A DNA stretch of 64,000 bases from Methylocystis sp. (GTDB lineage: Bacteria > Pseudomonadota > Alphaproteobacteria > Rhizobiales > Beijerinckiaceae). The stretch is from NCBI GenBank assembly GCA_002929055.1, contig PERY01000001.1, positions 1-64,000 of the forward strand. Direction: 5' to 3'. Position numbers and translations under genes: made by a program. The notes beneath the pieces were generated by a model. That model had not been told where the DNA came from. It saw nothing but the letters and a program-made list of their open reading frames with translations, and ran no database searches. Positions 32,782-49,134 of this stretch are shown here, in pieces (the stretch's first letter is position 1; each line of letters opens with the position of its first letter).

Positions 32782-33660
32782 TTACGGCGCCGCTCTGCCG
32801 CGGAACTTCACCGGCGACAGCAGGCGGCGCATTCCGTCCGGGCCAGGCGGCGGAAAGCGGCCGGCGCGAATATTCACCTGGATCGAGGGCAGCAGCAGGC
32901 GCGGCGCGGCAAGCGCCTTGTCGCGCTTTTCGCGGGAAGCGACGAAGTCGTCCTCGCTGACGCCGTCCCTGATCTGCACATTCTCCGCACGCTCCTGCGC
33001 GACCGTCGTTTCCCAAAGGTAGACGTCGCGGCCGGGCGCCTTGTAATCGTGGCACATGAAGAGCCGCGTCTGCGGCGGCAGCGCCAGGATGCGGCGGATC
33101 GAGCGGTAGAGCGCGCGGGCGTCGCCGCCGGGAAAGTCGGCGCGCGCCGTCCCGTAATCCGGCATGAAGAGCGTGTCGCCGACGAAGACCGCGTCGCCGA
33201 TCCTGTAGGAGACGCAGGCCGGCGTATGGCCGGGGGTGTAGAGAACCTCGACCTCCAGTTCGCCGATCCGGAAACGCTCGCCGTCCTTGAAGAGATGGTC
33301 GAAGTCGCGCGCCTCCGGGGCGATGTCGTCGGCCAGGAAGACGGGACGGAAGATGTCCTGAACCTTGGCGATGTGCTCGCCGATCCCGATCCTGGCGCCT
33401 GTCGCGGCCTTCACCACCGGGGCGGCGGAGAGGTGATCGGCGTGGGCGTGCGTCTCCAGCACCCATTCCACCGTCATCCCGCGGTCCCGGGCTTCCGCGA
33501 GAACGGCGTCGATCGAGCGCGAATCCGCGACGCCGCCGCCCGGGTCGTAATCCAGCACGGGATCGATGATCGCCGCCTTTTTCGTCGCGGGGTCGCAGAC
33601 GAGATAGGTGATGGTGAAGGTGGGCTCGTCGAAAAACGCCCGGATCGTCGGCTGCGACAT
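32782..33660 (-). CDS. blh: Persulfide dioxygenase-like MBL-fold hydrolase (Blh/ETHE1 type)
   Basis: 292-residue metallo-beta-lactamase fold protein with THAHADH (His71, His73, Asp75, His76), TPGHTPACVSYRIG and VGDTLFMPDYGTARADFPGG, the iron-binding and substrate region of ETHE1/Blh enzymes that oxidise glutathione persulfide to sulfite. It is divergent from a TauE/SafE permease that could export the sulfite. The shared intergenic region has two copies of the island's AT-rich motif and a good promoter for this gene. Confidence 0.88.
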   Translation of the reverse strand: MSQPTIRAFFDEPTFTITYLVCDPATKKAAIIDPVLDYDPGGGVADSRSIDAVLAEARDRGMTVEWVLETHAHADHLSAAPVVKAATGARIGIGEHIAKVQDIFRPVFLADDIAPEARDFDHLFKDGERFRIGELEVEVLYTPGHTPACVSYRIGDAVFVGDTLFMPDYGTARADFPGGDARALYRSIRRILALPPQTRLFMCHDYKAPGRDVYLWETTVAQERAENVQIRDGVSEDDFVASREKRDKALAAPRLLLPSIQVNIRAGRFPPPGPDGMRRLLSPVKFRGRAAP

Positions 33661-33695
33661 GTTTTCTCCTCGCCGCGTTGACGGCTTGCGGGCAA

Positions 33696-33723
33696 GATAT
33701 ATGCGGGCTATCTAAATAAGCAA
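33696..33723 (-). promoter_or_regulatory. Predicted promoter of blh
   Basis: On the minus strand TTGCTT (33723-33718), a 16-base spacer and TATATC (33701-33696) look like -35 and -10 elements. One copy of the sulfide motif lies inside the spacer, a position for repression. Confidence 0.45.
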
Positions 33724-33735
33724 TATCTAATGTAG
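33709..33735. promoter_or_regulatory. Sulfide-island motif A (two half copies), blh/tauE intergenic
   Basis: TATCTAAATA (33709-33718) and TATCTAATGTAG (33724-33735) carry the CTAA-N-TTAG core with one mismatch each. GCAATATC-TAAT is shared almost exactly with motif D at 43738. The sites lie between divergent blh and the TauE gene and could serve both. Confidence 0.5.
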
Positions 33736-33756
33736 TCGCTTCCGGAGACGCGGCTG

Positions 33757-34545
33757 ATGCTCACACCCGAAATTATCAGGCTCGCAGCCGGAACGCTCTC
33801 GGGCGTCTTCGTCGGTTTCTCGCTCGGGCTTGTCGGCGGCGGCGGCTCGGTGCTCGCCGTGCCGCTGCTCGTCTATTTCGTCGGGGTTTCAGACCCGCAT
33901 GTCGCCATCGGCACCAGCGCCGTGGCGGTCGCCGCCAATGCGCTCGTGAGCCTCGCCAACCACGCCCGCGCCGGCACGATAAAATGGCGCTGCGCTTCCG
34001 TCTTTGCGCTCTTTGGCGTCGCCGGGGCCTATGGCGGCTCGACGCTCGGCAAGATGATGAATGGCGAAAAGCTTCTCGCGCTCTTCGGCGTGCTCATGCT
34101 CGTCGTCGGCGTGCTGATGTTCCGCAGCCGCAGCGGCGAGGGCTATCCGCAGGTGCGGCTCAACCGCGAGAATTTTCCTCGCCTCGCCGCGACCGGCGTC
34201 GCGACCGGCGCGCTCTCGGGCTTCTTCGGCATTGGCGGGGGCTTTCTCATCGTGCCGGGGCTGATGCTCGCCGCCGACCTTCCCATTATCAACGCCATCG
34301 GCTCGTCGCTCGTGTCGGTCACGGCCTTCGGCGTGACGACGGCCGCGAACTACGCTTTCTCCGGGCTGGTCGATTGGTCACTGGCCGCGACGATTCTCGG
34401 CGGCGGCGTCATCGGCGGGCTGATCGGCGCGGCGACGGCGCGGCGGCTCGCGGGCCGGCGCGGGACGCTGGCGGCGATATTCGCCGGAATCGTCGTGGCG
34501 GTCGCGCTATATGTCATCTGGCGGGCGGTCGGCGCGCTGACCTAA
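33757..34545 (+). CDS. TauE/SafE family permease
   Basis: 262-residue inner-membrane protein with about eight helices and the duplicated TauE/SafE pattern: GFSLGLVGGGGSVLAVPLLVYF in the first half and GALSGFFGIGGGFLIVPGL in the second. The family exports sulfite, sulfonates or other sulfur anions. Divergent pairing with a persulfide dioxygenase makes sulfite export the natural reading, but the substrate is inference. The stop codon abuts the convergent xthA stop. Confidence 0.88.
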   Translation: MLTPEIIRLAAGTLSGVFVGFSLGLVGGGGSVLAVPLLVYFVGVSDPHVAIGTSAVAVAANALVSLANHARAGTIKWRCASVFALFGVAGAYGGSTLGKMMNGEKLLALFGVLMLVVGVLMFRSRSGEGYPQVRLNRENFPRLAATGVATGALSGFFGIGGGFLIVPGLMLAADLPIINAIGSSLVSVTAFGVTTAANYAFSGLVDWSLAATILGGGVIGGLIGAATARRLAGRRGTLAAIFAGIVVAVALYVIWRAVGALT

Positions 34546-35328
34546 TCAGGCGAATTCCGCATAGATCGGCACATGGTCTGACGGCTTCTCGCCCGCCCGC
34601 ACGGCCTTCACGATCTCGACCCGCTGGAGCCTGTCCGCGGCCTGCGGCGAAAGCAGCAGATGGTCGATGCGAATGCCCTTGTTCTTCTGCCAGGCGCCCG
34701 CCTGATAGTCCCAGAAGGTGTAGAGCCCAGCATCGTCCGTGACGGCCCGTAGCGCGTCCGTGTAGCCGAGGTTGAGAAGCCGGCGCCAGGCGGCGCGGCT
34801 CTGCGGCAGGAAAAGCGCGTCCCCCGCCCAGGCGGCAGGATCATGCACGTCGCGATTTTCGGGAATGATGTTGTAGTCGCCGGCGAGCACGGTCGCTTCC
34901 TCGAGCTTCAAAAGCGCCGCCGCATGCGCCGTCAGCGCCTCCATGAATTTCAGCTTGTAGGCGTATTTGCCCGTCTCGGGCGGATTGCCGTTCGGCGCGT
35001 AGATGGAGCCGACGCGGACCACGCCGCCGTCGCCATGCGTAATCACCGCCTCGATGTAGCGCGACTGCCCCTCGTGATCGAAACCGGGCAGGCCGACTGT
35101 CGTTTCCTCGATCGGGAATTTCGAAAGGATCGCGACGCCGTTGAAGGTCTTTTGGCCATGCAGGACGACATTGTAGCCCGCGTCCTCGACCTCCATGCGC
35201 GGAAAGGCGGCGTCCTCGCATTTGAGCTCTTGCAGGCAGAGGACGTCGGGCGCGGCCTCCTTCAGGAATGACAGCAGCGGCGCGAGCCGCTGCCGCACGG
35301 AATTCACATTCCAGGTGGCGATGCGCAA
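34546..35328 (-). CDS. xthA: Exodeoxyribonuclease III (AP endonuclease)
   Basis: 260-residue Mg2+-dependent nuclease of the exonuclease III/APE1 family for base-excision repair. Visible motifs: IATWNVNSVRQR, LCLQELKCED (metal Glu), SIYAPNGNPP, LAGDYNIIPENRDVHDP and the C-terminal IRIDHLLLSP with SDHVPIYAEF. The start is a TTG (35328) with AAGGAG ten bases upstream and gives LRIATWN, the normal family opening. An upstream ATG would add a non-homologous extension. Confidence 0.93.
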   Translation of the reverse strand: MRIATWNVNSVRQRLAPLLSFLKEAAPDVLCLQELKCEDAAFPRMEVEDAGYNVVLHGQKTFNGVAILSKFPIEETTVGLPGFDHEGQSRYIEAVITHGDGGVVRVGSIYAPNGNPPETGKYAYKLKFMEALTAHAAALLKLEEATVLAGDYNIIPENRDVHDPAAWAGDALFLPQSRAAWRRLLNLGYTDALRAVTDDAGLYTFWDYQAGAWQKNKGIRIDHLLLSPQAADRLQRVEIVKAVRAGEKPSDHVPIYAEFA

Positions 35329-35365
35329 TGTTCCAAAGCTCCTTTCACGGAGCTTTTGCGCTCCT

Positions 35366-35884
35366 TCAATCGAGCCGGTAGGCGGCGTGACAGGCGTTGC
35401 AGGCTTGCACGGTTTGGCCAAGCTCGGCAAGCGCCGGACGCAGGTCGCCGCCCTGTTTCACCCTGGCGGCTTCTTCCGCGAATTTTGTCGCCTGCGCGTG
35501 CATCGTCATGCCGAGCGCGCGCATCTCGTCGGGCATGTGGCTCGCCATCATCTTGGGCATGTCGCCGAGTTCGCCGGACTTCGCATTGGGCTTGCACGCG
35601 GCGGAGCCCGGCGAGCCCATGCCGAGCCTGTCCTCGGCGATCTTCGCGGCGGCGGGGCCGTCGCCCTTGGCGAGCGCGGCCAGAATTTCCGCGATCGCCT
35701 GCTGATGTCCGCGCATGTTCTCGAGCATCTTCGCCTTCATCGGATCGGGCACGTCGACCTCGATGCGCGCATCCCTGGCCATTTTGGACATCATCTGCAT
35801 GTGGTCGTGATGATCCTCCGCAATCGCGGCGGCGCCGATGAGAGAGAAGCCGCCAATCGCGGCGACGAGAAATTTTTTCCGCAT
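35366..35884 (-). CDS. Cytochrome c' family (class II) cytochrome
   Basis: 172 residues: a signal peptide (MRKKFLVAAIGGFSLIGAAAIA), a helical body rich in Met, His and Ala, and a haem c site CNACH close to the C-terminus, the class II/cytochrome c' arrangement. Such proteins bind NO or act as electron carriers in the periplasm. The ATG at 35884 has GGAGG eight bases upstream; ATGs at 35890 and 35899 are poorer. The gene stands between xthA and the HMA-TauE fusion in the sulfide island. Confidence 0.85.
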   Translation of the reverse strand: MRKKFLVAAIGGFSLIGAAAIAEDHHDHMQMMSKMARDARIEVDVPDPMKAKMLENMRGHQQAIAEILAALAKGDGPAAAKIAEDRLGMGSPGSAACKPNAKSGELGDMPKMMASHMPDEMRALGMTMHAQATKFAEEAARVKQGGDLRPALAELGQTVQACNACHAAYRLD

Positions 35885-35952
35885 CCTCATGTCCTCCACT
35901 TGAACGCGCGAAGACTAGCGCGATGCGCCGCTTTTTTCGCGACGGCGAATCG

Positions 35953-37524
35953 TCACGGCGCCGGCAGCGTCAGGACGCGTCCCGGTTTCAGCTTGCCTTT
36001 GCGCAGGCCGGGATTGGCCGCGGCGATGTCGCGCCAGCGCTTCGGGTCGCCGTAGATTTTCTTCGCCACGCTCTGGAGAGTGTCGCCGCGCTGGACGGCG
36101 TAGATCGCAGGCCTCGCGTCGGCGGGGGGCGGGGGCGCTACGCTCGCCGGAGGCGGAAGCTGCGTCGCTTGCGGGGGCGGAGTTGCGCCGGGCTCGACCA
36201 CGAGAAACTCGCCGCGGATCATTCCCATCCAGCAGCTCCAGGGAATGACGCCAGCTTTTTGAGGCGTAAACTCGATCGTCTGCCGGCCCGGCTTCAGATC
36301 GAATTCGAGGCCAAGCAAGGGGACGACGATGGCCTTGTTGCATTCCGTGATTTCCGCGGCGTTGATCGCCCACTTCACCGGAACGCCGCGGATGAGCGTG
36401 AAGCGCGACGGCGTGTAGCCCAGCGCATTCGCATCCATCTCGATTGTTTGCGCGGCGGGCGCGGGCTCGCTCGTCGTTGCGACAGGCGCTTCGTCCTGAC
36501 GCAACCTTGCGACGACCGACGCAAGGTCGTAGCCGGCGCCGGTCAGAATGATACCTCGATTGATCATCACGGCGCCGAGCGCGACGACGATCACGCCCGA
36601 GGCCTTCAGCAGCCGATGCGTCACGGCGCTCGACAGCATGGAGGCGACGACGCCGAAGGCGAGCATGACCGGCAGCGTGCCGACGCCGAATGCGAAGAGC
36701 ATCTTCGCGCCCTCGACCGGACTGCCCGTGCCCGCCGCCATCACATACATCGCCTGCAAAGGGCCGCAGGCGATCATGAGGCCATTGAGCAGGCCGATGA
36801 CGAATGGCCGGCGCCGTCCGCTCGCCTGAGCATAGACCCAACGCTCCAGCGGCGCCGGCAACCCGAGCCGAAAGCGCCGCAGCGGCGCGAAAAGCCCGAG
36901 CATGTTGAGCCCGAAGACGATGAGAAAAAGCCCGGCCGCCATGCCCGCCGCGCCGCGCAACAATGGCGTGAAGGCGATGAACGCCCCGATGGCGCCAAAG
37001 AGCGCGCCGATGGCCGTGTAGGAGAGCGTCTTGCCCGCGCCAAAGGCGACATGCGACGGCAGCGACGAGCGGTCTGCGGCGGCGTCCGCCGCAGTGTAGC
37101 TGACCACAAAGGCGCCGCACATGCCGATGCAATGAAAGCCCGTGACGAGGCCGAGCAGGAAGATGAGCCAAAGACTCATGTGCTGCGAAATATCGGGCGC
37201 GCCGCCGGCGCTGATCCATCGCGTATCGAAGAGGATGAGCGCTGCGAGAACGGCGAACGCGCCGCCGATCAGCGCGAGCCGCCGAAGGAGGGAAGGTTCG
37301 CGCCGCTCGCCCTCTTCGACGCGATAGCCGTTCTCCTCGACGCTGCGACGGATGGCGTCGAAGCCGATTGTCCCGGCGTCGAAGTCGACCGTTACGGTTT
37401 CGGTCGGATAATCGGCGCGCGCGCGGCGCACCCCCGCGAGCTTTCGCAAGCCCGCCTCGATGACATGTTCGCACCCGTGGCAATGCATGCCATGGGCGCG
37501 AAAAGTGACTGCGCTGTCGCTCAT
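35953..37524 (-). CDS. Four-domain HMA - TauE/DsbD-like - cupredoxin - LysM membrane protein
   Basis: 523 residues. 1-70: heavy-metal-associated domain with Cys15-x2-Cys18 (GMHCHGCE). About 80-330: six-helix COG2836-type permease (FHCIGMCGAFV and ACGPLQAMY motifs). About 355-440: cupredoxin-like domain ending IPWSCWMGMIRGEFLVV, a plausible Cu site. About 470-520: LysM domain (YAVQRGDTLQSVAKKIYG). HMA, permease and cupredoxin fusions are known copper-related proteins; the C-terminal LysM is unusual. Upstream on the same strand is a DUF2892 gene 48 bases away. Confidence 0.85.
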   Translation of the reverse strand: MSDSAVTFRAHGMHCHGCEHVIEAGLRKLAGVRRARADYPTETVTVDFDAGTIGFDAIRRSVEENGYRVEEGERREPSLLRRLALIGGAFAVLAALILFDTRWISAGGAPDISQHMSLWLIFLLGLVTGFHCIGMCGAFVVSYTAADAAADRSSLPSHVAFGAGKTLSYTAIGALFGAIGAFIAFTPLLRGAAGMAAGLFLIVFGLNMLGLFAPLRRFRLGLPAPLERWVYAQASGRRRPFVIGLLNGLMIACGPLQAMYVMAAGTGSPVEGAKMLFAFGVGTLPVMLAFGVVASMLSSAVTHRLLKASGVIVVALGAVMINRGIILTGAGYDLASVVARLRQDEAPVATTSEPAPAAQTIEMDANALGYTPSRFTLIRGVPVKWAINAAEITECNKAIVVPLLGLEFDLKPGRQTIEFTPQKAGVIPWSCWMGMIRGEFLVVEPGATPPPQATQLPPPASVAPPPPADARPAIYAVQRGDTLQSVAKKIYGDPKRWRDIAAANPGLRKGKLKPGRVLTLPAP

Positions 37525-37572
37525 GACCTCCGCCCGCCGTTGGCGTCGATCCCATTCCGCTAATCTATGGCT

Positions 37573-37758
37573 CTACTTGCCGCAGGTGTTCACGCCCAGG
37601 ATCTTGTATGCGGGGCAAAAATTGATGAAGGCGGTGACGAGCGGCACAATGCCAACGAGCCCCAGCCATGTCTTTGGCCCGACGAAGACCAGGCTCAGCA
37701 GAAGAACCCCCGCGACGATGCGGACGATCCGATCGGTCTTTCCGACATTTATTTCCAT
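37573..37758 (-). CDS. DUF2892 inner-membrane protein
   Basis: 61 residues with two hydrophobic helices and the DUF2892 pattern: NVGKTDRIVRIVAGVLLLS and FINFCPAYKILGVNTC. This domain is found alone or fused to rhodanese (YgaP) and is typical of persulfide-responsive clusters. A second copy is at 43077-43277. The Cys in NFCPAYK and the penultimate TCGK could carry sulfur; this is inference. Confidence 0.88.
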   Translation of the reverse strand: MEINVGKTDRIVRIVAGVLLLSLVFVGPKTWLGLVGIVPLVTAFINFCPAYKILGVNTCGK

Positions 37759-37770
37759 CTTCGATCTCCC

Positions 37771-37798
37771 ACGAATGGATGAACCGCATCCTATTCGT
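37771..37798. promoter_or_regulatory. Inverted repeat ACGAAT-N16-ATTCGT before the DUF2892 gene
   Basis: Perfect 6-base arms 13 to 40 bases upstream of the start at 37758. Further matching bases inside (GGATG/GCATCC) extend the symmetry. The ATTCGT arm also occurs in sulfide motifs B and E. Confidence 0.4.
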
Positions 37799-37825
37799 CG
37801 GCGAGCGCGAATCCGCGACTAAGTC

Positions 37826-38037: not shown

Positions 38038-39174
38038 TCAGTAAAAGTGATCGTCGCCCTTTTGGATCGCCGCCTCGGTCACGGCGCCGCGCAATACCCA
38101 ATAGACCCATGACGTATAGGCGAGAATGATCGGCAGGAAGAAGACGGCGGCGACAAGCATGAGCCCGAGCGTCATCTGGCTGGAGGATGCATCCCAGACG
38201 GTCAGGCTCTGGCCCGGATGCGAGGACGAGGGCATGAGGAACGGGAACAGGCTGAAGCCCGCCGTGGTCACGACGCCCGCGACGGAGACGCTCGAGGACA
38301 AGATGGCGAAACGCGATCCGGTCGCCAGCAGGATCGACGAGCCGAGCGCGCCGAGCAGGGCCGCGAGCGGCGCAAGCGCGGCCAGCGGATGACGCGCATA
38401 ATTCAGGAGCCAAGAGCCTGCGCCGACCACCACATCCTTGCCGAACGGGTTGGAGGGCGCCGAGAAATCCATCTGCGACTCTATCCGATATCCTTCTATC
38501 GAAGTTGCGATCCAGAGCCCCGCCACGAGGAGCAGCATGACCAGCGTCAACGCCGCGAGGGCGCCGATCCGCTGCGCTCGCGCGGCGATTTCTCCCTCGC
38601 TCTTGCCGGCCAGCCATGCCGAGCCCTGCATGATGAGCATTGTGACGCTGACAAGACCGCATAGTAGAGCGAAGGGACGCAACAAGCCGAGCAATCCGCC
38701 CTCATATTGAAACCGCAGCGCTTGATCGAAGTGGAAGGGAACCCCGAGCAGCAGATTGCCGAAGGCGACGCCGAACAGCAGCGAGGGAAGCGCGCCCGAA
38801 ACGAAGAACAGCCAGTCCCAGGTCGCGCGCCAGCGCGGGTCGTCCCGCTTGCTGCGGAAGGTGATGGCGACCGGCCGGAGTATAAGCCCGAGCAGCACGA
38901 GCAGCATCGCCAGATAGAAGCCGGAGAAAGAGGCCGCATAGAGCGGCGGCCAGGCCGCCAGAACGGCGCCGCCGCCCAGGATGAACCAGACCTGATTGCC
39001 TTCCCACACGGGCCCGATCGTGTTGATCAGCACGCGGCGCTCGACATCCTTCTTCGCGACGAACGGATGCAGCATCGCCACGCCAAGGTCGAAGCCGTCG
39101 AAAATCGCGAAGCCGACCAGAAGCACGCCGAGAAGCGCCCACCAGATGAAGCGCAGAGTCGCATAGTCGAACAT
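38038..39174 (-). CDS. cydB: Cytochrome bd ubiquinol oxidase subunit II
   Basis: 378-residue integral membrane subunit that pairs with CydA. Hallmarks are MFDYATLRFIWWALLGVLLVG, AIFDGFDLGVAML, GPVWEGNQVWFILGGGA and the C-terminal WDASSSQMTLG...AYTSWVYWVLRG. Length is typical. The ATG at 39174 follows cydA's stop by ten bases; an in-frame start at 39330 would overlap cydA and has no family character. Confidence 0.97.
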   Translation of the reverse strand: MFDYATLRFIWWALLGVLLVGFAIFDGFDLGVAMLHPFVAKKDVERRVLINTIGPVWEGNQVWFILGGGAVLAAWPPLYAASFSGFYLAMLLVLLGLILRPVAITFRSKRDDPRWRATWDWLFFVSGALPSLLFGVAFGNLLLGVPFHFDQALRFQYEGGLLGLLRPFALLCGLVSVTMLIMQGSAWLAGKSEGEIAARAQRIGALAALTLVMLLLVAGLWIATSIEGYRIESQMDFSAPSNPFGKDVVVGAGSWLLNYARHPLAALAPLAALLGALGSSILLATGSRFAILSSSVSVAGVVTTAGFSLFPFLMPSSSHPGQSLTVWDASSSQMTLGLMLVAAVFFLPIILAYTSWVYWVLRGAVTEAAIQKGDDHFY

Positions 39175-39184
39175 GGAGCTTTCC

Positions 39185-40762
39185 CTAGCGCGAGGCGTCA
39201 AAGGCGGGCTGCGCCTGCGGGAGCGGACCGGCCAGCGGCGCTTCCTCCGGCTCGGCATGCGGGCCTTTGCGAATATATTTCGCCAGCAGCGCCACATCGA
39301 CGACGGCCAGCGCCGTATAGAAGACGACAAAGGCCGCGAGGCTTATGGCGACATTGGAGGCGGGGACGCTCGAAACGCCGATGAAGGTCGGCATGATTCC
39401 GTCGATGATCCAGGGCTGGCGGCCCGATTCGGCGACGATCCAGCCAAGCTCCGCCGCGACCCAGGGCAGCGGCAGGCTGAACATCACGAGCTTTAGGAAC
39501 CAGGGCTGACCGATGCGCCGCCGGCTCGACAGATAGAAGGCGACGCCGAATAACGCGATGAAATAGAAACCCAGCGCGACCATGATGCGGAAGGACCAGA
39601 AGAGCACGGGCACGTCGGGGATGGTCGAGCGCGCGGCTTCAGCGATTTCTTCGCCTGTCGCGTTCTCAATGTCCTGCCGGATGCGCTTCAACAGCAGGGC
39701 GTAACCGACATCGCGCATGGACGCTTCGAGTTCAGGCGGCACGACGGCGCCCGGGCGGCCGCCATTCTCGGCCATCCATCTGTAGCCGGGCAGCCCGTTG
39801 CGGATGCGCGCTTCATGGTGCTTCACAAGCGGCTTGATGCCTTCGACCGGCGTGTCGAGCGAACGCGTCGCGATGATCCCGAGAAGGTATGGGATATGAA
39901 CGCCATAATTCGTCGTCTCGGTCTCGAGGTCGGGAAGGCCAAAGAGCGTGAAAGAGGCTGGAGCGGGCTCCGTCTCCCACATGGCCTCGATGGCGGCGAT
40001 CTTCATCTTCTGGCTCTCGCCCGCCGTATAGCCGCTCTCGTCGCCGAGCACGACGACAGATAGCGCTGACGCGAGGCCGAAGCTCGCGGCGACCGTCATG
40101 GAGCGTCGCGCGACCGCGGCGTGGCGGCCGCGCAGCATGTAATAAGCGGAGATCGACATGACGAACATGGCGCCGGTCACATAGCCCGCGCTGACCGTGT
40201 GCACGAACTTCGACTGTGCGACCGGATTGAACAGCACCTCCTTGAACGAGGTCAGCTCCATGCGCATCGTTTGCGGATTGAAGGCCGCGCCTACGGGATT
40301 CGACATCCAGGCGTTGGCGACGAGGATCCAGAGCGCCGAGAAATTGGTGCCGAGCGCGACGAGCCAGGTCACGACGAGGTGCTGGACCTTGGTGAGCCGC
40401 TTCCAGCCGAAGAAGAAGAGGCCGACGAAGGTCGCCTCCAGGAAGAAGGCCATCATCCCTTCGATGGCGAGCGGGACGCCGAAAATGTCGCCGACATAGT
40501 GCGAGTAATAGGCCCAATTGGTGCCGAACTGGAACTCCATGGTGATTCCGGTCGCGACGCCCATGACAAAATTGATGCCGAACAACGTTCCCCAGAATTT
40601 CACCGCATCGCGCCACACCGTGCGCCCGGTCATGACATAGACGCTCTCCATGATGGCGAGGAGCAGCGCGAGACCGAGCGTGAGGGGCACGAAGAGGAAG
40701 TGATAAAGGGCGGTTAGCGCGAACTGGAGGCGGGACAGCGTGACGACGTCGAGTTCGAACAT
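39185..40762 (-). CDS. cydA: Cytochrome bd ubiquinol oxidase subunit I
   Basis: 525 residues, the haem-bearing subunit reducing O2 to water with quinol. His21 (TALYHFLF) is the haem ligand region; GINFVMGVATGITMEFQFG, the Q-loop with AIEAMWETEPAPASFTLFG and the GRQPW segment are present. The Q-loop is the long (L) form, as in bd-I. Its ATG overlaps the cydP stop (TAATG). The operon lies downstream of sqr, fitting the sulfide-resistant oxidase role. Confidence 0.97.
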   Translation of the reverse strand: MFELDVVTLSRLQFALTALYHFLFVPLTLGLALLLAIMESVYVMTGRTVWRDAVKFWGTLFGINFVMGVATGITMEFQFGTNWAYYSHYVGDIFGVPLAIEGMMAFFLEATFVGLFFFGWKRLTKVQHLVVTWLVALGTNFSALWILVANAWMSNPVGAAFNPQTMRMELTSFKEVLFNPVAQSKFVHTVSAGYVTGAMFVMSISAYYMLRGRHAAVARRSMTVAASFGLASALSVVVLGDESGYTAGESQKMKIAAIEAMWETEPAPASFTLFGLPDLETETTNYGVHIPYLLGIIATRSLDTPVEGIKPLVKHHEARIRNGLPGYRWMAENGGRPGAVVPPELEASMRDVGYALLLKRIRQDIENATGEEIAEAARSTIPDVPVLFWSFRIMVALGFYFIALFGVAFYLSSRRRIGQPWFLKLVMFSLPLPWVAAELGWIVAESGRQPWIIDGIMPTFIGVSSVPASNVAISLAAFVVFYTALAVVDVALLAKYIRKGPHAEPEEAPLAGPLPQAQPAFDASR

Positions 40763-40941
40763 TACGGCTTTTCCTGCATTGACGTCCCCGGGGCGCTCAC
40801 TCTGAGAGCGGCCGCCATGTCCGCCGGAGTCACATGGGTGCGATGCGCCGGGCTGAAGAACAATGAATATAGCAAGAAAATTGCCACGACCTTGAAGGCG
40901 ATCGCCAGGGTGAGTTCGCGCCGGAGGGTGCTGCGCGCCAT
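40762..40941 (-). CDS. cydP: CydP-like small cytochrome bd accessory subunit
   Basis: 59 residues: MARSTLRRELTLAIAFKVVA opens a basic N-terminus and a single membrane helix ending LLYSLFFSPAHRTHVT, the CydP pattern found before cydA in many proteobacteria. The stop codon overlaps the cydA start (TAATG), indicating strict coupling. Start ATG at 40941. The 86-base gap to sqr upstream lacks an AT-rich promoter, suggesting read-through from sqr. Confidence 0.82.
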   Translation of the reverse strand: MARSTLRRELTLAIAFKVVAIFLLYSLFFSPAHRTHVTPADMAAALRVSAPGTSMQEKP

Positions 40942-42308: not shown

Positions 42309-42352
42309 TGGACACCCTCCCACGCACGCGGCGAAACCCGCGACGCTTTTAT

Positions 42353-42375
42353 ATATTCGTATTATCTAATTTAGA
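42353..42375 (-). promoter_or_regulatory. Sulfide-island motif B upstream of sqr
   Basis: ATTC-N8-TAAT (42355-42370) overlaps the perfect palindrome TCTAA-T-TTAGA (42365-42375). It is 47-67 bases upstream of the sqr start. ATTC-N8-GAAT is the published SqrR site as I recall it, one base away from this form. Confidence 0.6.
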
Positions 42376-42392: not shown

Positions 42393-43061
42393 TTAGTCAC
42401 GCTCGGCTTCGCAGAGGGCGCGCAACGCGGCCGCATCCGTTATCTCGGCGCCGCCGCGCGACAGTTTGACCCAGCCGGAGCGCTCGAAGCTCTTCAGCGT
42501 GCGCCCGACGACTTCGCGTGCGGTGCCGAGGTCGGCCGCCAGCGCCTGCTGGGTGACGGAAATGCGATCGCCCGCGCCGCGCAAGGCCAGAAGCCGCTCC
42601 GCGAGCCGGACATTGATGCGCGTGCAGACGATTTCCTCGATCCGCGACATGAGCGTCGCGATGCGCCGGCTGTATCCGTCGAACACGATGGCGCGAAAGC
42701 CCGAGGAGGCGTTCATGAGCGCTGCGAAGCGCTCTGAAGGGACGATGTATGCGACGACATCGGTCTCCGCCACGCCCTCAGCGGCATAGTTGTCGGCGGA
42801 GAGAAGCGAGGCGGTGGTCAGAATGCAGGTCTCATTTGTGGAGACCCGATAAAGCACGATCTCGCGCCCTGATTCCGTGATCCGCTGGATACGAACCGTA
42901 CCCGAGACGATCAGCGGAAACTGCACGCATTGGTCGCCCGGGCGAAAGAGGATGGCGCCGCGCGGGATCTGCTTGCGTATGGCCGACTCACGCAACAACG
43001 TCTTCGTGGGCTCATCGAGCCCGCGAAGAAGCGGCGCCTGCTCAATCCAGTCCGAGGCCAT
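42393..43061 (-). CDS. Crp/Fnr-family transcriptional regulator
   Basis: 222 residues: cyclic-nucleotide-binding-like beta barrel (about 15-130, FRPGDQCVQFPLIVSGTVRIQR), a dimer helix, and a winged helix with the recognition helix REVVGRTLKSF. That pattern (R-E-x-x-G-R) is CRP-like, not the E-x-x-S-R of FNR/FixK. The FNR N-terminal cysteine cluster is absent; cysteines occur near 45, 78 and 145. It lies 15 bases after the DUF2892 gene, so it belongs to the arsR transcript, and precedes sqr. Confidence 0.85.
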   Translation of the reverse strand: MASDWIEQAPLLRGLDEPTKTLLRESAIRKQIPRGAILFRPGDQCVQFPLIVSGTVRIQRITESGREIVLYRVSTNETCILTTASLLSADNYAAEGVAETDVVAYIVPSERFAALMNASSGFRAIVFDGYSRRIATLMSRIEEIVCTRINVRLAERLLALRGAGDRISVTQQALAADLGTAREVVGRTLKSFERSGWVKLSRGGAEITDAAALRALCEAERD

Positions 43062-43076: not shown

Positions 43077-43277
43077 TCAGAAGGCCGCGCCGGGCTTCAC
43101 GCCCATACGCTTGAGGATCATGGCCAAGGGGCACAAGCCTGTAAAGGCCGCCTGCAGCAGATTGAGGCCGACAAAACCGGCGAGCAGCATCCACCAGGGG
43201 GAGACGAAATGCGCCAGCAAAAGACTGACGAGAATCATAGCGCCCGCAAACGCCATGACAATGCGATCGATGCTCAT
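43077..43277 (-). CDS. DUF2892 inner-membrane protein
   Basis: 66 residues with two membrane helices and the family ending [17 protein letters not shown] (Cys in GLCPLA). Its start overlaps the arsR stop by ATGA. DUF2892 proteins accompany BigR/SqrR-type regulators in persulfide detoxification clusters; the molecular role is not settled. Compare the second copy at 37573-37758. Confidence 0.88.
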
Positions 43278-43639
43278 GACGCTTTCCTTTCTGTCACGCG
43301 CGGCGGCTTCTTGCGTGATCCGGATTTCGCGCCGCATCCTTCCGCGCAGAACATATCGTACAGAAGCCCGATGACGCGCGAGACGTTTTCATCCGCGAGA
43401 GAGTAGAAAATGGTCTGCGACTCGCGCCGGGTCTTGACCAGATTGTCCTCGCGCAGGCGCGCCAGATGCTGCGAAAGCGAAGATTGACTGAGGCCAATCG
43501 CGGCCTGCAGCTTCGTCACGGACAATTCACCCTTGTGCAACTCGCACAGAACCATCAGCCGGTGGCGGTTGGCGAGCGCTTTCAGGAAGCTCTCCGCCTG
43601 CTCAGCCCTCGGCGCGAGGTCAACGGCTTTTATATTCAT
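43274..43639 (-). CDS. BigR/SqrR-type ArsR-family persulfide-responsive repressor
   Basis: 121-residue winged-helix protein. Cys32 ([11 protein letters not shown]) and Cys98 (LYDMFC) match the two cysteines that form a disulfide or polysulfide link in SqrR/BigR, and Cys102 follows. The ArsR metal site CxCxxC is absent. [14 protein letters not shown] is the recognition helix. A promoter with -10 only 8 bases before the ATG predicts a nearly leaderless mRNA. The shared motif covers that -10 and the start codon, implying autorepression. DUF2892 and crp follow on the same strand. Confidence 0.9.
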
Positions 43640-43653
43640 AAACGCTAATTTAC
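43634..43653 (-). promoter_or_regulatory. Sulfide-island motif C over the arsR start
   Basis: ATTC-N8-TAAT (43634-43649) with a CTAA-T-TTAC core (43645-43653) overlaps both the arsR start codon and the predicted -10 hexamer. Confidence 0.55.
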
Positions 43654-43674
43654 AGTCCCCTCATATTGAGTCAA
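43647..43674 (-). promoter_or_regulatory. Predicted promoter of the arsR operon
   Basis: Minus-strand TTGACT (43674-43669), a 16-base spacer and TAAATT (43652-43647). The expected start point falls within a base or two of the ATG at 43639, so the mRNA would be leaderless. Confidence 0.55.
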
Positions 43675-43734
43675 GCCCTCCTCGCGGGGCGCGGGCGTTT
43701 CGATTTGTCGCATTTCGGGCCCGGGCGTCGCCGT

Positions 43735-43757
43735 TATATTAGATATTGCGCATTTAA
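43735..43757 (+). promoter_or_regulatory. Sulfide-island motif D upstream of the HiPIP-like gene
   Basis: The reverse complement reads GCAATATC-TAAT-ATAA, nearly identical to motif A (GCAATATC-TAAT-GTAG). It lies 35-55 bases before the ATG at 43789 and includes TATATT, a possible -10. Confidence 0.5.
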
Positions 43758-43788
43758 CAGCGCCCATGAAAGGAATACGGAGGACGCC

Positions 43789-44043
43789 ATGAAACATCGG
43801 GACGGCATTTGCGACCGGCGGCGCGCGTTGAAGCTGCTGGGCGCAGCGACGACATGCGCAGGGGCCGCGGCGCTTGTCGGCGCCTCGCCCGCTAGCGCAG
43901 CAAGCAAATCAGCAGCTGCCTATCGCGCTTCGCCCAATGGCCGTCAGCGATGCGCCAATTGCTCCTGGTTCGCGCCGCCGTCGGGTTGCGGCGTCGTGCG
44001 GGGCTCGGTCAACGCGAACGGCTGGTGCAATCTCTGGGGCTGA
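43789..44043 (+). CDS. Tat-exported high-potential iron-sulfur protein (HiPIP-like)
   Basis: 84 residues. The N-terminus has a twin-arginine signal (DRRRALKLLGAATT, cleavage near SPASA-AS). The mature part has four cysteines spaced C55-x2-C58-x8-C67-x12-C80 with GW before the last, the HiPIP [4Fe-4S] pattern. Such proteins carry electrons in the periplasm. The ATG at 43789 has GGAGGA five bases upstream. It is divergent from arsR and shares the island motif. Confidence 0.82.
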   Translation: MKHRDGICDRRRALKLLGAATTCAGAAALVGASPASAASKSAAAYRASPNGRQRCANCSWFAPPSGCGVVRGSVNANGWCNLWG

Positions 44044-44093
44044 TCTGCCCGCATGCGCCTTCTTTGGCCGGGGCCGCGCGGCGCTGTCACTAA

Positions 44094-44124
44094 ATTCGTA
44101 CTTGCTAAATTAGATTCCACGAAT
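44094..44124 (+). promoter_or_regulatory. Sulfide-island motif E upstream of the RND operon
   Basis: ATTC-N8-TAAA (44094-44109) overlaps the perfect core CTAA-A-TTAG (44105-44113); ATTC-CAC-GAAT follows at 44114-44124. A likely -35 TTGCTA (44103-44108) lies inside the motif and -10 TATAGA at 44124-44129. Confidence 0.55.
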
Positions 44125-44158
44125 ATAGATAGGGAAGCGTCGCCGCGTGGGAGATTTG

Positions 44159-45124
44159 ATGGGCCGCTTTCGCGTTTTTCTGCTTCTCGCCGCGTCTGCA
44201 GCGCCCGCCGCCGCCGGTGAAGTCACCGTCCATGTCGCTCCAGTCGACGACATGAAGGCTGTCGTCGCCTCGGTGGAGCCCGCGCACCAGCTCGTGGCGC
44301 GCGCGCGCATCGGCGGCACGGTCACGACGCTCAAGATCAAGGAGGGCGACACGGTGGCCGCCGGCGCCGAGGTCGCAGCCATCGCGGACCAGAAGCTTTT
44401 TCTTCAGATGCAGGCGCTCGACCAGCGCATTCGCTCGCAGCAGGCGCAGCGCGACAAGGCGCAGGCGGATTTCGACCGTGCGCAGGAACTGCTCCGCCGA
44501 GGGGTGACGACCAAGGTCATGCACGATCAGGCCAAGACGGGTCTCGACGTCGCGGATCGCAATCTCGCAGCGCTGCGTTCCGATCGCAGCGTCATCGAAC
44601 AGCAGGCGGCCGAGGGCTCCGTCAAGGCGCCGGGACCGGGTCGCATTCTGACGATACCCGTCTCCATCGGCCGCGTCGTGATGCCGGGCGAAACCATCGC
44701 CACGCTGGCGGAAGACAATTACATCCTGCGTCTGCAACTCCCGGAACGGCATGCTCGCTTCATGCGGGCGGGCGACCGCGTCGAGATCGGCGCGCGCGGC
44801 CTGCACGAGGATGCGGGCGGCGCACGCAAGGAAGGGCGCGTGCGCATCGTCTATCCGGAGATCCAGGGCGGACGCGTCATCGCCGACGTCGATGTGAAGG
44901 GGCTCGACAATTATTTCGTCGGCGAGCGCGCCCGGGTCTATGTCATGACCGGAAAGCGCGACGCCATTCTCGCGCCAAAGGCCGCCGTCTATCGCCGCGC
45001 CGGCGTCGACTTCGTCAAGCTTGCGGACGGCGCCGAAGTTGCGGTGCAGGCCGGCGACGTGCACGGCGACGCGGTGGAGATTCTCTCCGGCCTGCACGAT
45101 GGCGACGTGGTGCGGACGCCATGA
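44159..45124 (+). CDS. RND efflux periplasmic adaptor (membrane fusion protein)
   Basis: 321 residues: a signal peptide (MGRFRVFLLLAASAAPAAA, cleavage before GEVTV), lipoyl/barrel-sandwich halves (RIGGTVTTLKIKEGDTVAAG and SVKAPGPGRIL) around a short helical hairpin (about 95-150), then beta-barrel and membrane-proximal domains. It links the inner-membrane pump to an outer-membrane channel, for which no gene is present. The lipobox cysteine is missing. The ATG at 44159 has GGGAG five bases upstream. It overlaps the pump gene by four bases. Confidence 0.87.
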   Translation: MGRFRVFLLLAASAAPAAAGEVTVHVAPVDDMKAVVASVEPAHQLVARARIGGTVTTLKIKEGDTVAAGAEVAAIADQKLFLQMQALDQRIRSQQAQRDKAQADFDRAQELLRRGVTTKVMHDQAKTGLDVADRNLAALRSDRSVIEQQAAEGSVKAPGPGRILTIPVSIGRVVMPGETIATLAEDNYILRLQLPERHARFMRAGDRVEIGARGLHEDAGGARKEGRVRIVYPEIQGGRVIADVDVKGLDNYFVGERARVYVMTGKRDAILAPKAAVYRRAGVDFVKLADGAEVAVQAGDVHGDAVEILSGLHDGDVVRTP

Positions 45125-48100
45125 GCGAAGACACGGCTGACGGCCGCATGGCTGCGCCCGAGTTTCATCCGGGCATCTCCGGCACGCTGACGCGGACCTT
45201 CATCAACTCGCCGCTCACGCCGCTCCTGCTCCTCGCCTCGATTCTCGTCGGCCTCATCGCCTTGCAGGCGCTGCCGCGCGAAGAGGAGCCGCAAATTTCC
45301 GTGCCCATGGTGGACATCATGGTGCAGGCGAATGGCTACAAGGCGGAAGACGCGATCGAGCTCATCACGCGTCCGCTCGAGGACATCATCAAGGGCGTCA
45401 ATGGCGTCGAGCATGTCTATTCGCAGACGCGCGACGACAATGTGATGGTGACGGCGCGTTTCTTCGTCGGCACGCCGCAGGACAACGCCGTGCTGCGCGT
45501 GCACGACAAGATCCGCGCCAACATCGGGGGCCTGCCAAAGGGAATCCCCGAGCCGCTCATTGTCGGGCGCGGCATCGACGACGTCGCCATCGTCGTGCTG
45601 ACGCTTTCGGCGAGGCCGGAGCGCGCAGGCGGCTGGACCGACAACGGCCTCTTCCAGGTTGCGGAAGAGTTGCAACATGAGCTGACCAAAGTCGACAATG
45701 TGGGCTTGAGCTATATCGTCGGCGGCAGCCCGAACCAGATTCGCGTCGAGCCCGACCCGGAGCGCCTGTCGCAATATGGCGTGACGCTCAACCAGCTCAT
45801 CGACAAGCTGACCAACGCCAACCGCTCTTTCCAGGTCGGCGCCTTTCGCGAGGGCGACCGCTCGGTTCCGGTCGTCGCCGGGCAGACGCTGCAGGGCGTG
45901 CCGGACATCGGGCTGCTGTTGCTCACGACGCGCGACGGCCGCCCGGTCTATGTGAAGGACGTCGCAAACGTCATCGTCGGCGCCTCGGAGCCGGACAGAC
46001 GCAGCTGGACGATGACGAAAGGCAAGGACGGCGCGCTCGTCAAGCGTCCCGCCGTCAGCATCGCCATCGCCAAACGCAAGGGCGCCAATGCTGTGATCGT
46101 GGCTGAGGAGGTGCTGCATCGGCTCGAGTCCGTCAAGGGCCGCATCGTTCCGGAAGACCTCGAAATCGCCGTCACGCGCAATTACGGCGAGACCGCCACG
46201 GAGAAGGCGAACGAGCTTCTGTTCCATCTCTCGCTGGCGACCGTTTCCATCGTGCTGCTCATCGTCGTCATGGTCGGCTGGCGCGAGGGCGTCGTCGTTT
46301 TCGTCATCATCCCGACGACAATTCTTCTCACGCTCTTCGCCTCCTGGCTGATGGGCTACACGATCAACCGCGTCAGCCTCTTCGCGCTTATCTTCTCTAT
46401 CGGCATTCTCGTCGACGATGCGATCGTCGTCGTCGAAAACATCGTGCGCCACTGGCAGATGCGGGGCGAGCGCAGCCTGATCGACTCCGCCGTCGAAGCC
46501 GTGGCGGAAGTCGGCAATCCCACCATTGTCGCGACGCTCACCATCATCGCCGCGCTGTTGCCGATGATGTTCGTGTCGGGCCTGATGGGGCCCTATATGA
46601 GCCCCATTCCCGCCAATGCGTCGCTTGCGATGGTCTTCTCCTTCTTCGTCGCCATGACGATCACGCCCTGGCTTCTCCTGAAGATCGCAGGCAGGCATTT
46701 CGAGCAGGCGGGCGGCGCCGGCCACGACCATTCCCACGCGCGCGGCGCCATGGGCGATTTCTACGCGCGCATTGCGACTCCCCTGCTCGAGGGCCGCACG
46801 CGCTCCCAGCGTTTCCTCACGGCCGTGGGCGTCGCGACGCTTCTCTCCATGGGCCTGTTCTACACAAAGAGCGTGCGCGTGAAGCTGCTGCCTTTCGACA
46901 ACAAGTCGGAGATCGCGGTCGTCGTCGATCTGCCGCGCGGCGCCTCGCTTGAGGAAACCGACCGCGTGTTGACGGCCGCCGCGCAGCGCCTGAAGGACAT
47001 TCCGGAACTCACCTCGATTCAATCCTATGCCGGCGCGGCGGCGCCCTTCAATTTCAACGGCCTCGTGCGGCATTACTATGTGCGCGCCATGCCCGAGATG
47101 GGCGATCTTGCCATCAATCTGCTGCCGAAGGACGAACGCAAGCGCGCAAGTCACGCCATCGCTCTGGAAATCCGCGAAAAGCTCAAGGGCCTTCCGGTTC
47201 CGGAACACACGGCCGTGAAGGTCGTCGAAGTGCCGCCCGGCCCGCCGGTGCTGTCCACGCTGCTGGCGGAAGTCTACGGTCCGGACGCACAAGCGCGTCG
47301 AGACCTCGCGACGAAACTGCGCAAGGCCTTCGACAATGTCGACTTCGTGGTCGATACGGACGATAGTTTCGGCCAGCGCGCGGAGCGGCTGCGCTTCGCG
47401 ATCGATCAGGACGCGCTCGAATATCACGGCGTCGAGGAACGCGCGGTCTATGACACGATCGGCGCTCTGGTCGGCGGCGTGAAGATCGGCTTCTCGCAGC
47501 GCGGCGGCGGCGCGAAGCCCATCGACGTCACGGTCGCCCTCCCGCGCTCGCAGATGACGACGGGCGAACGCATTCTCTCGACGCCCTTGCCTGCGGGCGG
47601 GACGGTGCGGCAGGGCGCCAATGTCGAGCTTGGCGACGTGGTGAAAGCGACGCGCGAACTCGGCTCCTACCCGATCTTTCGGCACAACGGCCGGTTCGCC
47701 GAGATGGTCAGCGCGGAAGTCGCCGGGCGCTTCGAGGCGCCGATCTACGGCATGTTCGCCGTGGAGGACGAGATCAAGAAGCTCGACTGGGGCAAGGACG
47801 GCGCCCCGGCCATCAAGTATCACGGCCAGCCGCTCGATGATTCACAGCCGACGCTTCTCTGGGATGGCGAGTGGGAAGTCACTTATGTCACCTTCCGCGA
47901 CATGGGCGCGGCCTTCATGGTGGCGCTGCTCGGCATCTATCTTCTCGTCGTCGCGCAATTCGGCTCGTTCAAGCTGCCGCTCGTCATCCTTGCGCCCGTG
48001 CCGCTGACGCTCGTCGGCATCGTCATCGGGCATCTGCTCTTCAACGCCGCCTTCACCGCGACCTCGATGATCGGCTTCATCGCGCTTGCGGGCATCGTCG

Positions 48101-48405
48101 TGCGCAATTCGATCCTGCTGGTCGATTTCATCCGTCATCTGCGGGAAAAGGGCATGCCCCTGCGCGCGGCTCTGGTGGAGGCGGGCGCCGTTCGCTTCAA
48201 GCCTATCTTCCTCACCGCCGCGGCCGCGATCATCGGCGCGGCCTTCATTCTCACAGATCCCATCTTTCAGGGGCTGGCGATCTCTCTCGTCTTCGGCCTC
48301 GCGTCGTCGACGGCGCTGACGCTGCTCGTCATCCCCGCCATATACGTCGTATTGCGCGACGACGAACGGCCGCCGCCGGCGCGGCATGAAAGGACGCCCG
48401 CATGA
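45121..48405 (+). CDS. RND superfamily efflux pump
   Basis: 1094-residue inner-membrane proton-driven pump: TM1 then a large periplasmic porter domain, TM2-TM6, a second porter domain, and TM8-TM12. The proton-relay acidic pair is in TM4 (ILVDDAIVVVENI, Asp432-Asp433). It reads as an AcrB/AcrD/AcrF-like protein rather than CzcA. Translation is coupled to the adaptor before it and to a CMD-family gene after it. The substrate is unknown; context suggests a sulfur or reactive compound. Confidence 0.92.
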   Translation: MSEDTADGRMAAPEFHPGISGTLTRTFINSPLTPLLLLASILVGLIALQALPREEEPQISVPMVDIMVQANGYKAEDAIELITRPLEDIIKGVNGVEHVYSQTRDDNVMVTARFFVGTPQDNAVLRVHDKIRANIGGLPKGIPEPLIVGRGIDDVAIVVLTLSARPERAGGWTDNGLFQVAEELQHELTKVDNVGLSYIVGGSPNQIRVEPDPERLSQYGVTLNQLIDKLTNANRSFQVGAFREGDRSVPVVAGQTLQGVPDIGLLLLTTRDGRPVYVKDVANVIVGASEPDRRSWTMTKGKDGALVKRPAVSIAIAKRKGANAVIVAEEVLHRLESVKGRIVPEDLEIAVTRNYGETATEKANELLFHLSLATVSIVLLIVVMVGWREGVVVFVIIPTTILLTLFASWLMGYTINRVSLFALIFSIGILVDDAIVVVENIVRHWQMRGERSLIDSAVEAVAEVGNPTIVATLTIIAALLPMMFVSGLMGPYMSPIPANASLAMVFSFFVAMTITPWLLLKIAGRHFEQAGGAGHDHSHARGAMGDFYARIATPLLEGRTRSQRFLTAVGVATLLSMGLFYTKSVRVKLLPFDNKSEIAVVVDLPRGASLEETDRVLTAAAQRLKDIPELTSIQSYAGAAAPFNFNGLVRHYYVRAMPEMGDLAINLLPKDERKRASHAIALEIREKLKGLPVPEHTAVKVVEVPPGPPVLSTLLAEVYGPDAQARRDLATKLRKAFDNVDFVVDTDDSFGQRAERLRFAIDQDALEYHGVEERAVYDTIGALVGGVKIGFSQRGGGAKPIDVTVALPRSQMTTGERILSTPLPAGGTVRQGANVELGDVVKATRELGSYPIFRHNGRFAEMVSAEVAGRFEAPIYGMFAVEDEIKKLDWGKDGAPAIKYHGQPLDDSQPTLLWDGEWEVTYVTFRDMGAAFMVALLGIYLLVVAQFGSFKLPLVILAPVPLTLVGIVIGHLLFNAAFTATSMIGFIALAGIVVRNSILLVDFIRHLREKGMPLRAALVEAGAVRFKPIFLTAAAAIIGAAFILTDPIFQGLAISLVFGLASSTALTLLVIPAIYVVLRDDERPPPARHERTPA

Positions 48406-48770
48406 CCAATGACTGGCCCGAACTCGCAAAGGCTCTGACCGCCGACATTCGAAATCTGCGCGTTGGCGCGCCAGATGTCATGAAGGCCTTTTCCTCTATG
48501 GCGACTTCTGCGGGCGCGACAGGCGCGCTCGACGCGAGGACGAAGGAGCTTGTCGCGCTGGCTGTCAGCGTCGCAGTGCGCTGCGACGATTGCATCGCCT
48601 TGCACGCCAAGGCCGCGGCGGAGCGCGGCGCGACGCGTGAGGAGATCTTGGAAACCCTCAGCATGGCGATCTACATGGGAGCCGGGCCTTCGGTGATGTA
48701 CGCCAGCCACGCGCTTGCAGCCTTCACGCAGTTCGAGGCCGGCAAAAACCCCCAACCGCAATCCGCCTGA
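48402..48770 (+). CDS. Carboxymuconolactone decarboxylase/AhpD-like protein
   Basis: 122 residues of the CMD fold, all-helical. The redox motif Cys61-x2-Cys64 with His68 (RCDDCIALHAKAA) is the AhpD-type thiol-disulfide centre, so reduction of a peroxide or disulfide/persulfide partner is more likely than decarboxylation. It overlaps the RND gene by ATGA and precedes a rhodanese by 19 bases. Confidence 0.88.
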   Translation: MTNDWPELAKALTADIRNLRVGAPDVMKAFSSMATSAGATGALDARTKELVALAVSVAVRCDDCIALHAKAAAERGATREEILETLSMAIYMGAGPSVMYASHALAAFTQFEAGKNPQPQSA

Positions 48771-48789
48771 TCACAGAAAGGAAAATCCA

Positions 48790-49134
48790 ATGTTCTCTGG
48801 CCTGATCTCAAAGCTCACCGGCGCCGGCGACGCTCTGCCGACGATCGAGCATGACGATTTCGCGCGCATCGTGAAAGATCACTCCTGCGCCATCGTCGAT
48901 GTGCGGGAGCCGCATGAATACGCCGCCGGCCATGTGCCCGGCGCGCGCAACCTGCCGCTCTCGCAGTTCCAGCCCTCGCAACTGCCCAAGGGCGACTGCG
49001 TCATCATTTGCCAGGCCGGCGGCCGCTCGGCCAAGGCGCTGACGCAGGCGGTTCAGTCCGGGCGAAAGGACGTTCGCCATTACGCGCCGGGCACGGGCGG
49101 ATGGCGCGCCCGCGGAGGCGACGTCACGGCGTGA
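48790..49134 (+). CDS. Single-domain rhodanese-like sulfurtransferase
   Basis: 114 residues: IVDVREPHEYAAGHVPGARNLPLSQF is the rhodanese signature, and the active-site loop is Cys74-Q-A-G-G-R-S. It transfers sulfane sulfur, for example from thiosulfate or persulfide to a thiol. There is no signal peptide, so it acts in the cytosol. It is the last gene of the RND operon; AAAGGAAAATCC precedes its ATG. Confidence 0.92.
   Translation: MFSGLISKLTGAGDALPTIEHDDFARIVKDHSCAIVDVREPHEYAAGHVPGARNLPLSQFQPSQLPKGDCVIICQAGGRSAKALTQAVQSGRKDVRHYAPGTGGWRARGGDVTA

Follow-up and report, generated by a model that had tools for sequence, protein, structure and literature searches.

A stretch of 64,000 nucleotides from a Methylocystis genome (the window; NCBI GenBank assembly GCA_002929055.1, contig PERY01000001.1, positions 1 to 64,000) was analyzed with regard to a cluster of sulfide and persulfide genes between positions 32782 and 49134 and to the operators through which a single ArsR-family repressor probably controls them. 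The window represents contig C1 of a genome of 3.01 Mb in 63 contigs with a completeness of 89.4%. The permease of the resistance-nodulation-division (RND) type encoded in the cluster is 94% identical to that of Methylocystis sp. Sn-Cys and 89–90% identical to those of M. suflitae, M. rosea and Methylocystis sp. H62.

In Rhodobacter capsulatus, SqrR acts as a repressor of sqr and of a rhodanese gene and comes off the DNA when a tetrasulfide forms (PMC9995734). The SqrR operator is printed as ATTC-N8-GAAT (PMC9774250), the form given in an earlier note on this DNA. According to a Hyphomicrobium denitrificans survey of ArsR regulators related to sHdrR and SoxR, genes of sulfane-sulfur ArsR proteins have sqr, pdo, rhodanese, TauE and RND genes in their vicinity (PMC12423496). 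Putative sulfide:quinone reductases (SQRs) in Methylocystis have been noted already in a paper whose 2023 abstract terms the effect of sulfide on methanotrophs virtually unknown, and a title in its reference list refers to cytochrome bd respiration despite sulfide (PMC10205796).

Genes of the cluster

The following genes were assigned.

32782–33660, minus strand: sulfur (persulfide) dioxygenase of the metallo-beta-lactamase type, the dioxygenase half of Blh only
33757–34545, plus strand: TauE/SafE permease, probable sulfite exporter (PF01925, 175 bits)
38038–39180, minus strand: cydB, cytochrome bd subunit II (PF02322)
39185–40780, minus strand: cydA, cytochrome bd subunit I (PF01654)
41028–42323, minus strand: sqr, with full-length similarity to a solved SQR (PDB 3sz0, residues 6–428, 512.8 bits)
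42393–43061, minus strand: Crp/Fnr-family regulator between the DUF2892 gene and sqr, without an operator of its own (PF00027, PF13545)
43077–43277, minus strand: DUF2892 protein (YgaP-like, transmembrane) downstream of arsR (PF11127, 49.6 bits)
43274–43639, minus strand: arsR, SqrR/BigR-like repressor of 121 amino acids (HTH_5; C32, C98 and also C102), the proposed reader of the operators
43789–44043, plus strand: high-potential iron-sulfur protein (HiPIP) with Tat-like signal (PF01355, 25.0 bits at a cut-off of 22, in the reading 43666–44043)
44147–45124, plus strand: RND periplasmic adaptor, a membrane fusion protein (MFP; TIGR01730, 107.6 bits)
45121–48405, plus strand: RND permease, multidrug-like (PF00873, 482 bits)
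48402–48770, plus strand: CMD/AhpD-like protein with CxxC (PF02627, TIGR00778)
48790–49134, plus strand: single-domain rhodanese (PF00581 in the reading 48715–49134; start 48790 read from the sequence)

SQR, CydAB, ArsR, the HiPIP and the MFP-RND-CMD-rhodanese series, all but the MFP named in the earlier note, are each supported by profile or PDB matches, while other assignments of the note held in part. The protein called Blh is present as its dioxygenase half and lacks the sulfurtransferase half: NF040641 gave 359 bits over profile positions 140–420 only, below the cut-off of 625 for both domains. One of two TauE permeases is clear; the other, 35953–37524, is an HMA-DsbD_2-LysM protein. Only one of two DUF2892 proteins (43077–43277) was recovered by tblastn, the small open reading frames being partly covered by the profile scan. 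The nearest solved relative of the HiPIP is PioC (6xyv, 47.7 bits), and its four cysteines are located in the C-terminal half. The order sqr-cydA-cydB was found in all 11 examined stretches that hold sqr.

A common 22-bp operator motif

Alignment of the five intergenic regions in which the note had seen ATTC-N8-TAAT and CTAA-N-TTAG variants yielded a 22-bp operator of the ArsR type, TAwATTcG-N6-CtAATwTA, with the half-site TAxATTxG; CTAA-N-TTAG proved to be the half-site common to two operators 15 bp apart. For scoring, a matrix was built from 25 RND-side sites in the gaps between ArsR and MFP genes (ArsR|MFP gaps) of records not titled Methylocystis, because circularity was to be avoided. The training pool comprised 32 gaps in loci L067–L120, 25 of which passed an 18-of-24 rule while 7 failed; although the pool excludes Methylocystis-titled records, its record L067 is an unclassified Methylocystaceae metagenome-assembled genome. 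With this matrix, six strong sites of 26.3–34.0 bits were found in the window, covering all five regions, and the next best site (at 4164) reached 14.8 bits. No site of at least 15 bits occurred in 20 order-1 Markov copies of the window, and in shuffled intergenic DNA the observed score was reached in 0 of 5000 shuffles for each of four regions.

33713–33734, plus strand: operator between the divergent dioxygenase and tauE genes, 27.0 bits (overlapped by a weaker one at 33698–33719, 11.2 bits)
42352–42373, plus strand: operator upstream of sqr-cydAB, 34.0 bits
43631–43652, plus strand: operator over the arsR −10 element and start codon, 26.3 bits (overlapped by a weaker one at 43646–43667, 9.3 bits)
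43735–43756, minus strand: operator upstream of the HiPIP gene, 28.0 bits
44091–44127, plus strand: composite operator upstream of MFP-RND, consisting of the 22-mers 44091–44112 and 44106–44127 with three half-sites, 28.6 and 27.0 bits

At the pump promoter both members of the overlapping pair are strong; at dioxygenase/tauE and arsR the second one scores lower. The arsR operator covers the promoter-like sequence TTGACT-16-TAAATT (43674–43647, minus strand) together with the start codon. Also, at 4149–4185, two weak operator-like sequences (8.5 and 14.8 bits) overlap with an offset of 15 bp; they are located in AT-rich DNA upstream of a gene for an outer-membrane-protein-like product (3082–4077).

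The specificity of the full form is evident from a genome scan, the check proposed in the note in order to see whether the motif is just as common upstream of unrelated genes. When no more than one mismatch was allowed, the symmetric consensus was matched at six places, all in the window (reversed control: 0); exactly two mismatches gave 11 further places outside (control: 13 at up to two), one of them being the multicopper oxidase site described below. A looser asymmetric pattern derived from the sites matched exactly at five places, all in the island, and with one mismatch at three places outside. The short form ATTC-N8-TAAT, as written in the note, is not specific, as only 3 of its 13 exact places in the genome are in the island and 10 are outside.

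Conservation of the sites in Methylocystis

Promoters were scored for a site of at least 14 bits within 160 nt upstream in 13 stretches from 11 Methylocystis genomes. A site was present for the dioxygenase (7/7) and tauE (7/7, one shared site), arsR (11/11), the HiPIP (9/9), MFP (9/11) and SQR (7/11). Taken together, 50 of 56 target promoters had a site, as opposed to none of 113 from twelve control gene types. These stretches had been picked through pattern-search matches in them and target rates lean upward; therefore, all 30 arsR loci fetched in a Methylocystis search (33 of 39 genomes had an arsR match) were rescored as a less biased set. Here, the site was found upstream of arsR in 30/30, the HiPIP gene in 22/22 (some of these windows of up to 160 nt also contain the arsR site), MFP in 26/26 and sqr in 9/29 loci, and at none of the control genes (crp 0/26, DUF2892 0/30, RND 0/8, DsbD 0/1; total 0/65). 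The other targets were complete in this set, and the rate for sqr fell from 7/11; a strong sqr site as in this window is therefore a minority trait in the genus.

The HiPIP gene, where present in Methylocystis, is located in or beside the ArsR|MFP gap, and all eight fetched stretches that contain it have a separate HiPIP-side site of 16–34 bits. In genome G150 (L177), the pump operon is located about 3.2 Mb off along the contig, and the composite operator is still present. Both MFP misses in the chosen stretches are L179 and L193, where MFP-RND follows cydB and the pump has no operator. In these two, MFP-RND is on the same strand as the preceding sqr-cydA-cydB with gaps of about 140–210 nt, as if forming one operon.

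An unlinked multicopper oxidase gene

All eight additional sites that were fetched from the genus, among the matches listed, were located upstream of one multicopper oxidase gene with Tat signal. In the genome studied here the gene is found at C18:27726-29330 (L217, L018) and its operator at C18:29381-29402 (19.2 bits). An oxidase site of 15.0–32.9 bits was present in all 27 Methylocystis genomes with an arsR orthologue (E ≤1e-51), including this one, 48–62 nt before the Tat motif in 26 genomes and 170 nt before it in one. Outside these 27 there were genomes classed as "mid" with regard to the orthologue (G160 with site; G161 and G089 with none; G149 unparsed) and genomes classed as "none" (7 parsed; G165 without an oxidase match).

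The oxidase resembles CueO, SufI and bilirubin oxidase, and is below every NCBIfam cut-off. It is present in 38 of 39 genomes of the genus (E 1e-60) and in 7 of 149 genomes of the family (E 1e-120), six of these belonging to Methylocystis and the seventh having no 12-bit site in the locus. A TonB-like gene faces the oxidase gene in the eight other genomes, with Pfam typing on the L181 pair only. As a predicted target of this operator, the unlinked oxidase is new here.

The probable repressor and its recognition helix

The best PDB matches of the ArsR protein, of the winged-helix type, were 3jth (HlyU) and 6o8k (ArsR family, 87.6 bits), which we take to be SqrR, followed by NolR, the biofilm growth-associated repressor 3pqj and YgaV. 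The nearest solved relatives thus come from the SqrR/BigR/HlyU/YgaV group, in agreement with the type given in the earlier note, though the protein is under the cut-off of the BigR profile NF040642. At E 1e-12 it is the single ArsR match in this genome. The claim that both sensing cysteines are kept stands as well: C32 and C98 align with cysteines of the third-ranked PDB match, and in a set of 61 ArsR matches, at least two rows of which are the same contig twice (L063/L182, L065/L185), both residues were found in 48/48 proteins of at least 47% identity and in 11/13 below 47%.

In the same set, the recognition helix was SQHL in 48, QVPMSQQL in 9 and of other kinds in 4 proteins. SQHL helices were accompanied by TAAT-type sites in 45/48 loci (none in 3) and QVPMSQQL helices by exact ATTC-N8-GAAT in 7/9 (none in 2), while a TAAT-type site was found in 1/4 loci with other helices. 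No cross-pairing of SQHL with GAAT or of QVPMSQQL with TAAT was seen among the ArsR loci scored, and exact GAAT palindromes occurred solely with QVPMSQQL helices. The operators of the window read ATTC-N8-TAAT or variants, i.e., not the SqrR palindrome. This pairing suggests a helix-to-operator code dividing two classes of persulfide sensors.

In L116, L122, L124–L127 and L129, the ArsR proteins encoded near MFP-RND form a second clade, in which the QVPMSQQL helix is combined with exact ATTC-N8-GAAT palindromes. In L070, L073, L075 and L076, diverged sequence with CATATTGCAATAT or similar is present at the ArsR start, perhaps a different operator type.

The module in other genera

Among the best 80 of 590 RND relatives (1.49 Mb of sequence), ArsR-DUF2892 facing MFP-RND is common, with an outward-facing ArsR within 900 nt of MFP in 40/80, and SQR is often nearby. 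Outside Methylocystis, too, the ArsR|MFP gap often shows the architecture with three half-sites. In the sequence of the 80 relatives, 85 sites reached 18 bits or more, and 78 of them were upstream of module genes; after removal of the training loci (55 RND loci remaining) this applied to 37 of 43.

The best 30 dioxygenase loci, from a search matching 68 of 149 family genomes, include 26 outside Methylocystis. In 17 of the latter, the dioxygenase gene is preceded by a site scoring 14 bits or more (in two of them only 14–15 bits), and several form ArsR-rhodanese-DUF2892-TauE operons resembling the bigR operon. As the site thus occurs elsewhere at dioxygenase operons and at pump operons, Methylocystis may have joined two known gene sets and put them under one regulator, if their history is read correctly.

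Neighboring genes

The proposal of one 16-kb block sharing the motif did not hold in this extent, because no site is present upstream of the XthA-like, cytochrome c′, DsbD-like and carbonic anhydrase genes in the examined stretches; in the window, no operator site was found at the genes within 34546–37524. The product of 35953–37524 is an unusual fusion in which a heavy-metal-associated domain is combined with a membrane part of the DsbD_2 type and with LysM; a match to cupredoxin stayed below the cut-off. Its gene adjoins a cytochrome c′-like gene (35366–35899) and is kept, without operator, in Methylocystis islands. At the island end, a beta-carbonic anhydrase gene (49221–49868) adjoins the rhodanese gene, likewise in five other Methylocystis stretches (L180, L182, L184, L185 and L188).

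Discussion

The cross-genus matrix, the specificity and conservation of the sites and the covariation of helix and site, all of which are seen directly in the sequences as are the conserved cysteines, argue for one SqrR/BigR-like ArsR acting through one operator type on the sulfide genes, the HiPIP gene, the MFP-RND operon and the unlinked oxidase gene, with predicted derepression by persulfides. For this interpretation, which retains the regulatory core of the earlier note, we estimate a probability of about 0.85.

In the mechanism that we propose, binding, inducer and derepression as well as operon extents, the pump substrate and the roles of the HiPIP and the oxidase are predictions. An ArsR dimer would bind the 22-bp operators, often overlapping pairs 15 bp apart, and thereby block the promoters of dioxygenase|tauE, sqr-cydAB, arsR-DUF2892(-crp), the HiPIP gene, MFP-RND-CMD-rhodanese and the unlinked multicopper oxidase gene. 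Per- and polysulfides formed by sulfide oxidation via SQR would then bridge C32 and C98, and the repressor would leave the promoters, a step assumed because of the chemistry of the family (PMC9995734, PMC12423496). Derepression would provide the cell with enzymes of sulfide oxidation, a terminal oxidase that tolerates sulfide, an exporter for sulfite and an efflux pump: SQR and the dioxygenase would oxidize sulfide, TauE would export sulfite, cytochrome bd would respire despite sulfide and the rhodanese would move sulfane sulfur. Where sqr has no site of its own, its transcription may start at arsR and run through DUF2892 and crp.

Several observations weigh against this interpretation. Only 9 of 29 Methylocystis loci have a site at sqr, so that in the remaining ones the gene would depend on read-through from arsR or be controlled in another way. 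The arsR-proximal operator is partly within the coding start, and ArsR reaches only 94.0 bits with NF040642, under the curated cut-off of 155. Among the 55 RND loci outside the training set, only 19 show a site of 18 bits at MFP, and in other genera 7 of 32 ArsR|MFP gaps fit the consensus poorly. Genome G179 (97% complete) retains a convincing oxidase site without an ArsR match, and so does G170 (64% complete), without an arsR orthologue; the remaining parsed genomes without orthologue have 6.8–17.5 bits at other distances, the AT-rich ones reaching 13.5–17.5 bits. Finally, counts across related genomes are non-independent events, and some upstream windows of neighboring genes overlap.

Different explanations of the motif were considered. 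It could be a shared promoter element or reflect the AT bias of intergenic DNA, which is indeed AT-richer; the site overlaps the arsR hexamers TTGACT-16-TAAATT, and short forms of the motif are present elsewhere in the genome. However, control promoters lacked the site throughout (0/113 and 0/65), the shuffles gave 0/5000 per region, the full form with at most one mismatch was found nowhere else in 3.0 Mb and the site type tracks the ArsR helix, so that we rejected this explanation as very improbable. We consider it just as improbable that another regulator reads the motif. The obvious candidate, the Crp/Fnr protein 42393–43061, is encoded within the cluster and conserved in Methylocystis, but a Crp match was found in only 2 of the 76 RND loci L067–L142 (L072, L117), the operator persisting in many of them, and here too the dependence of operator type on the ArsR helix speaks for ArsR as the reader.

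That ArsR reads the sites and senses a metal, nitroxyl or peroxide instead, the sulfide genes being part of a wider redox regulon, appears unlikely, if slightly less so. The HiPIP nearest to PioC, the CueO-like multicopper oxidase and the AhpD-like protein are not annotated as sulfide enzymes, and the sqr site is not general in Methylocystis; yet both cysteines of the sensor family are kept in 48/48 homologues, and genes of SQR, dioxygenase, TauE and rhodanese are among the partners in other genera.

Compared with known systems, the predicted regulon is best described as a variant of the SqrR/BigR regulon. Its ArsR protein is from the same subfamily as SqrR of R. capsulatus, while the second half-site is TAAT instead of GAAT, operators occur in overlapping pairs, and HiPIP, RND and multicopper oxidase genes are probably included. 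As in the BigR operon of Xylella and Agrobacterium, where a sulfide-responsive repressor acts on a sulfur dioxygenase (PMC5823870), a dioxygenase gene is among the proposed targets; unlike there, it lacks the sulfurtransferase half and an adjacent regulator and is apparently under the ArsR beside the RND operon. YgaV of Escherichia coli is a homologue of SqrR/BigR with an SqrR-like sequence in the binding area (PMC9774250), but gene set and organism differ. Section 2.1 of the H. denitrificans survey names no RND operator, HiPIP, cytochrome bd or multicopper oxidase (PMC12423496). The claim that the joint regulon is undescribed can be upheld in part: in the literature reachable, which includes few subscription papers, no title or abstract start dealt with this operator, its HiPIP or oxidase, whereas RND genes beside such regulators are known in general terms (PMC12423496).

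A more far-reaching idea, which we put forward tentatively and rate below even odds, is that SQR-DUF2892-ArsR facing MFP-RND forms an unnamed, widespread alphaproteobacterial module for the sulfide response, with an operator of three half-sites and a dedicated pump expelling sulfane-sulfur compounds, to which Methylocystis added dioxygenase/TauE, HiPIP, cytochrome bd and the multicopper oxidase as a periplasmic enzyme. If this is true, sulfide exposure would reprogram electron flow and copper chemistry in methanotrophs. These organisms encounter sulfide where methane is consumed, and a defined operator together with a gene list makes their response testable in cultured Methylocystis. Beyond this genus, the predicted regulon ties an RND pump to sulfur stress in Alphaproteobacteria.

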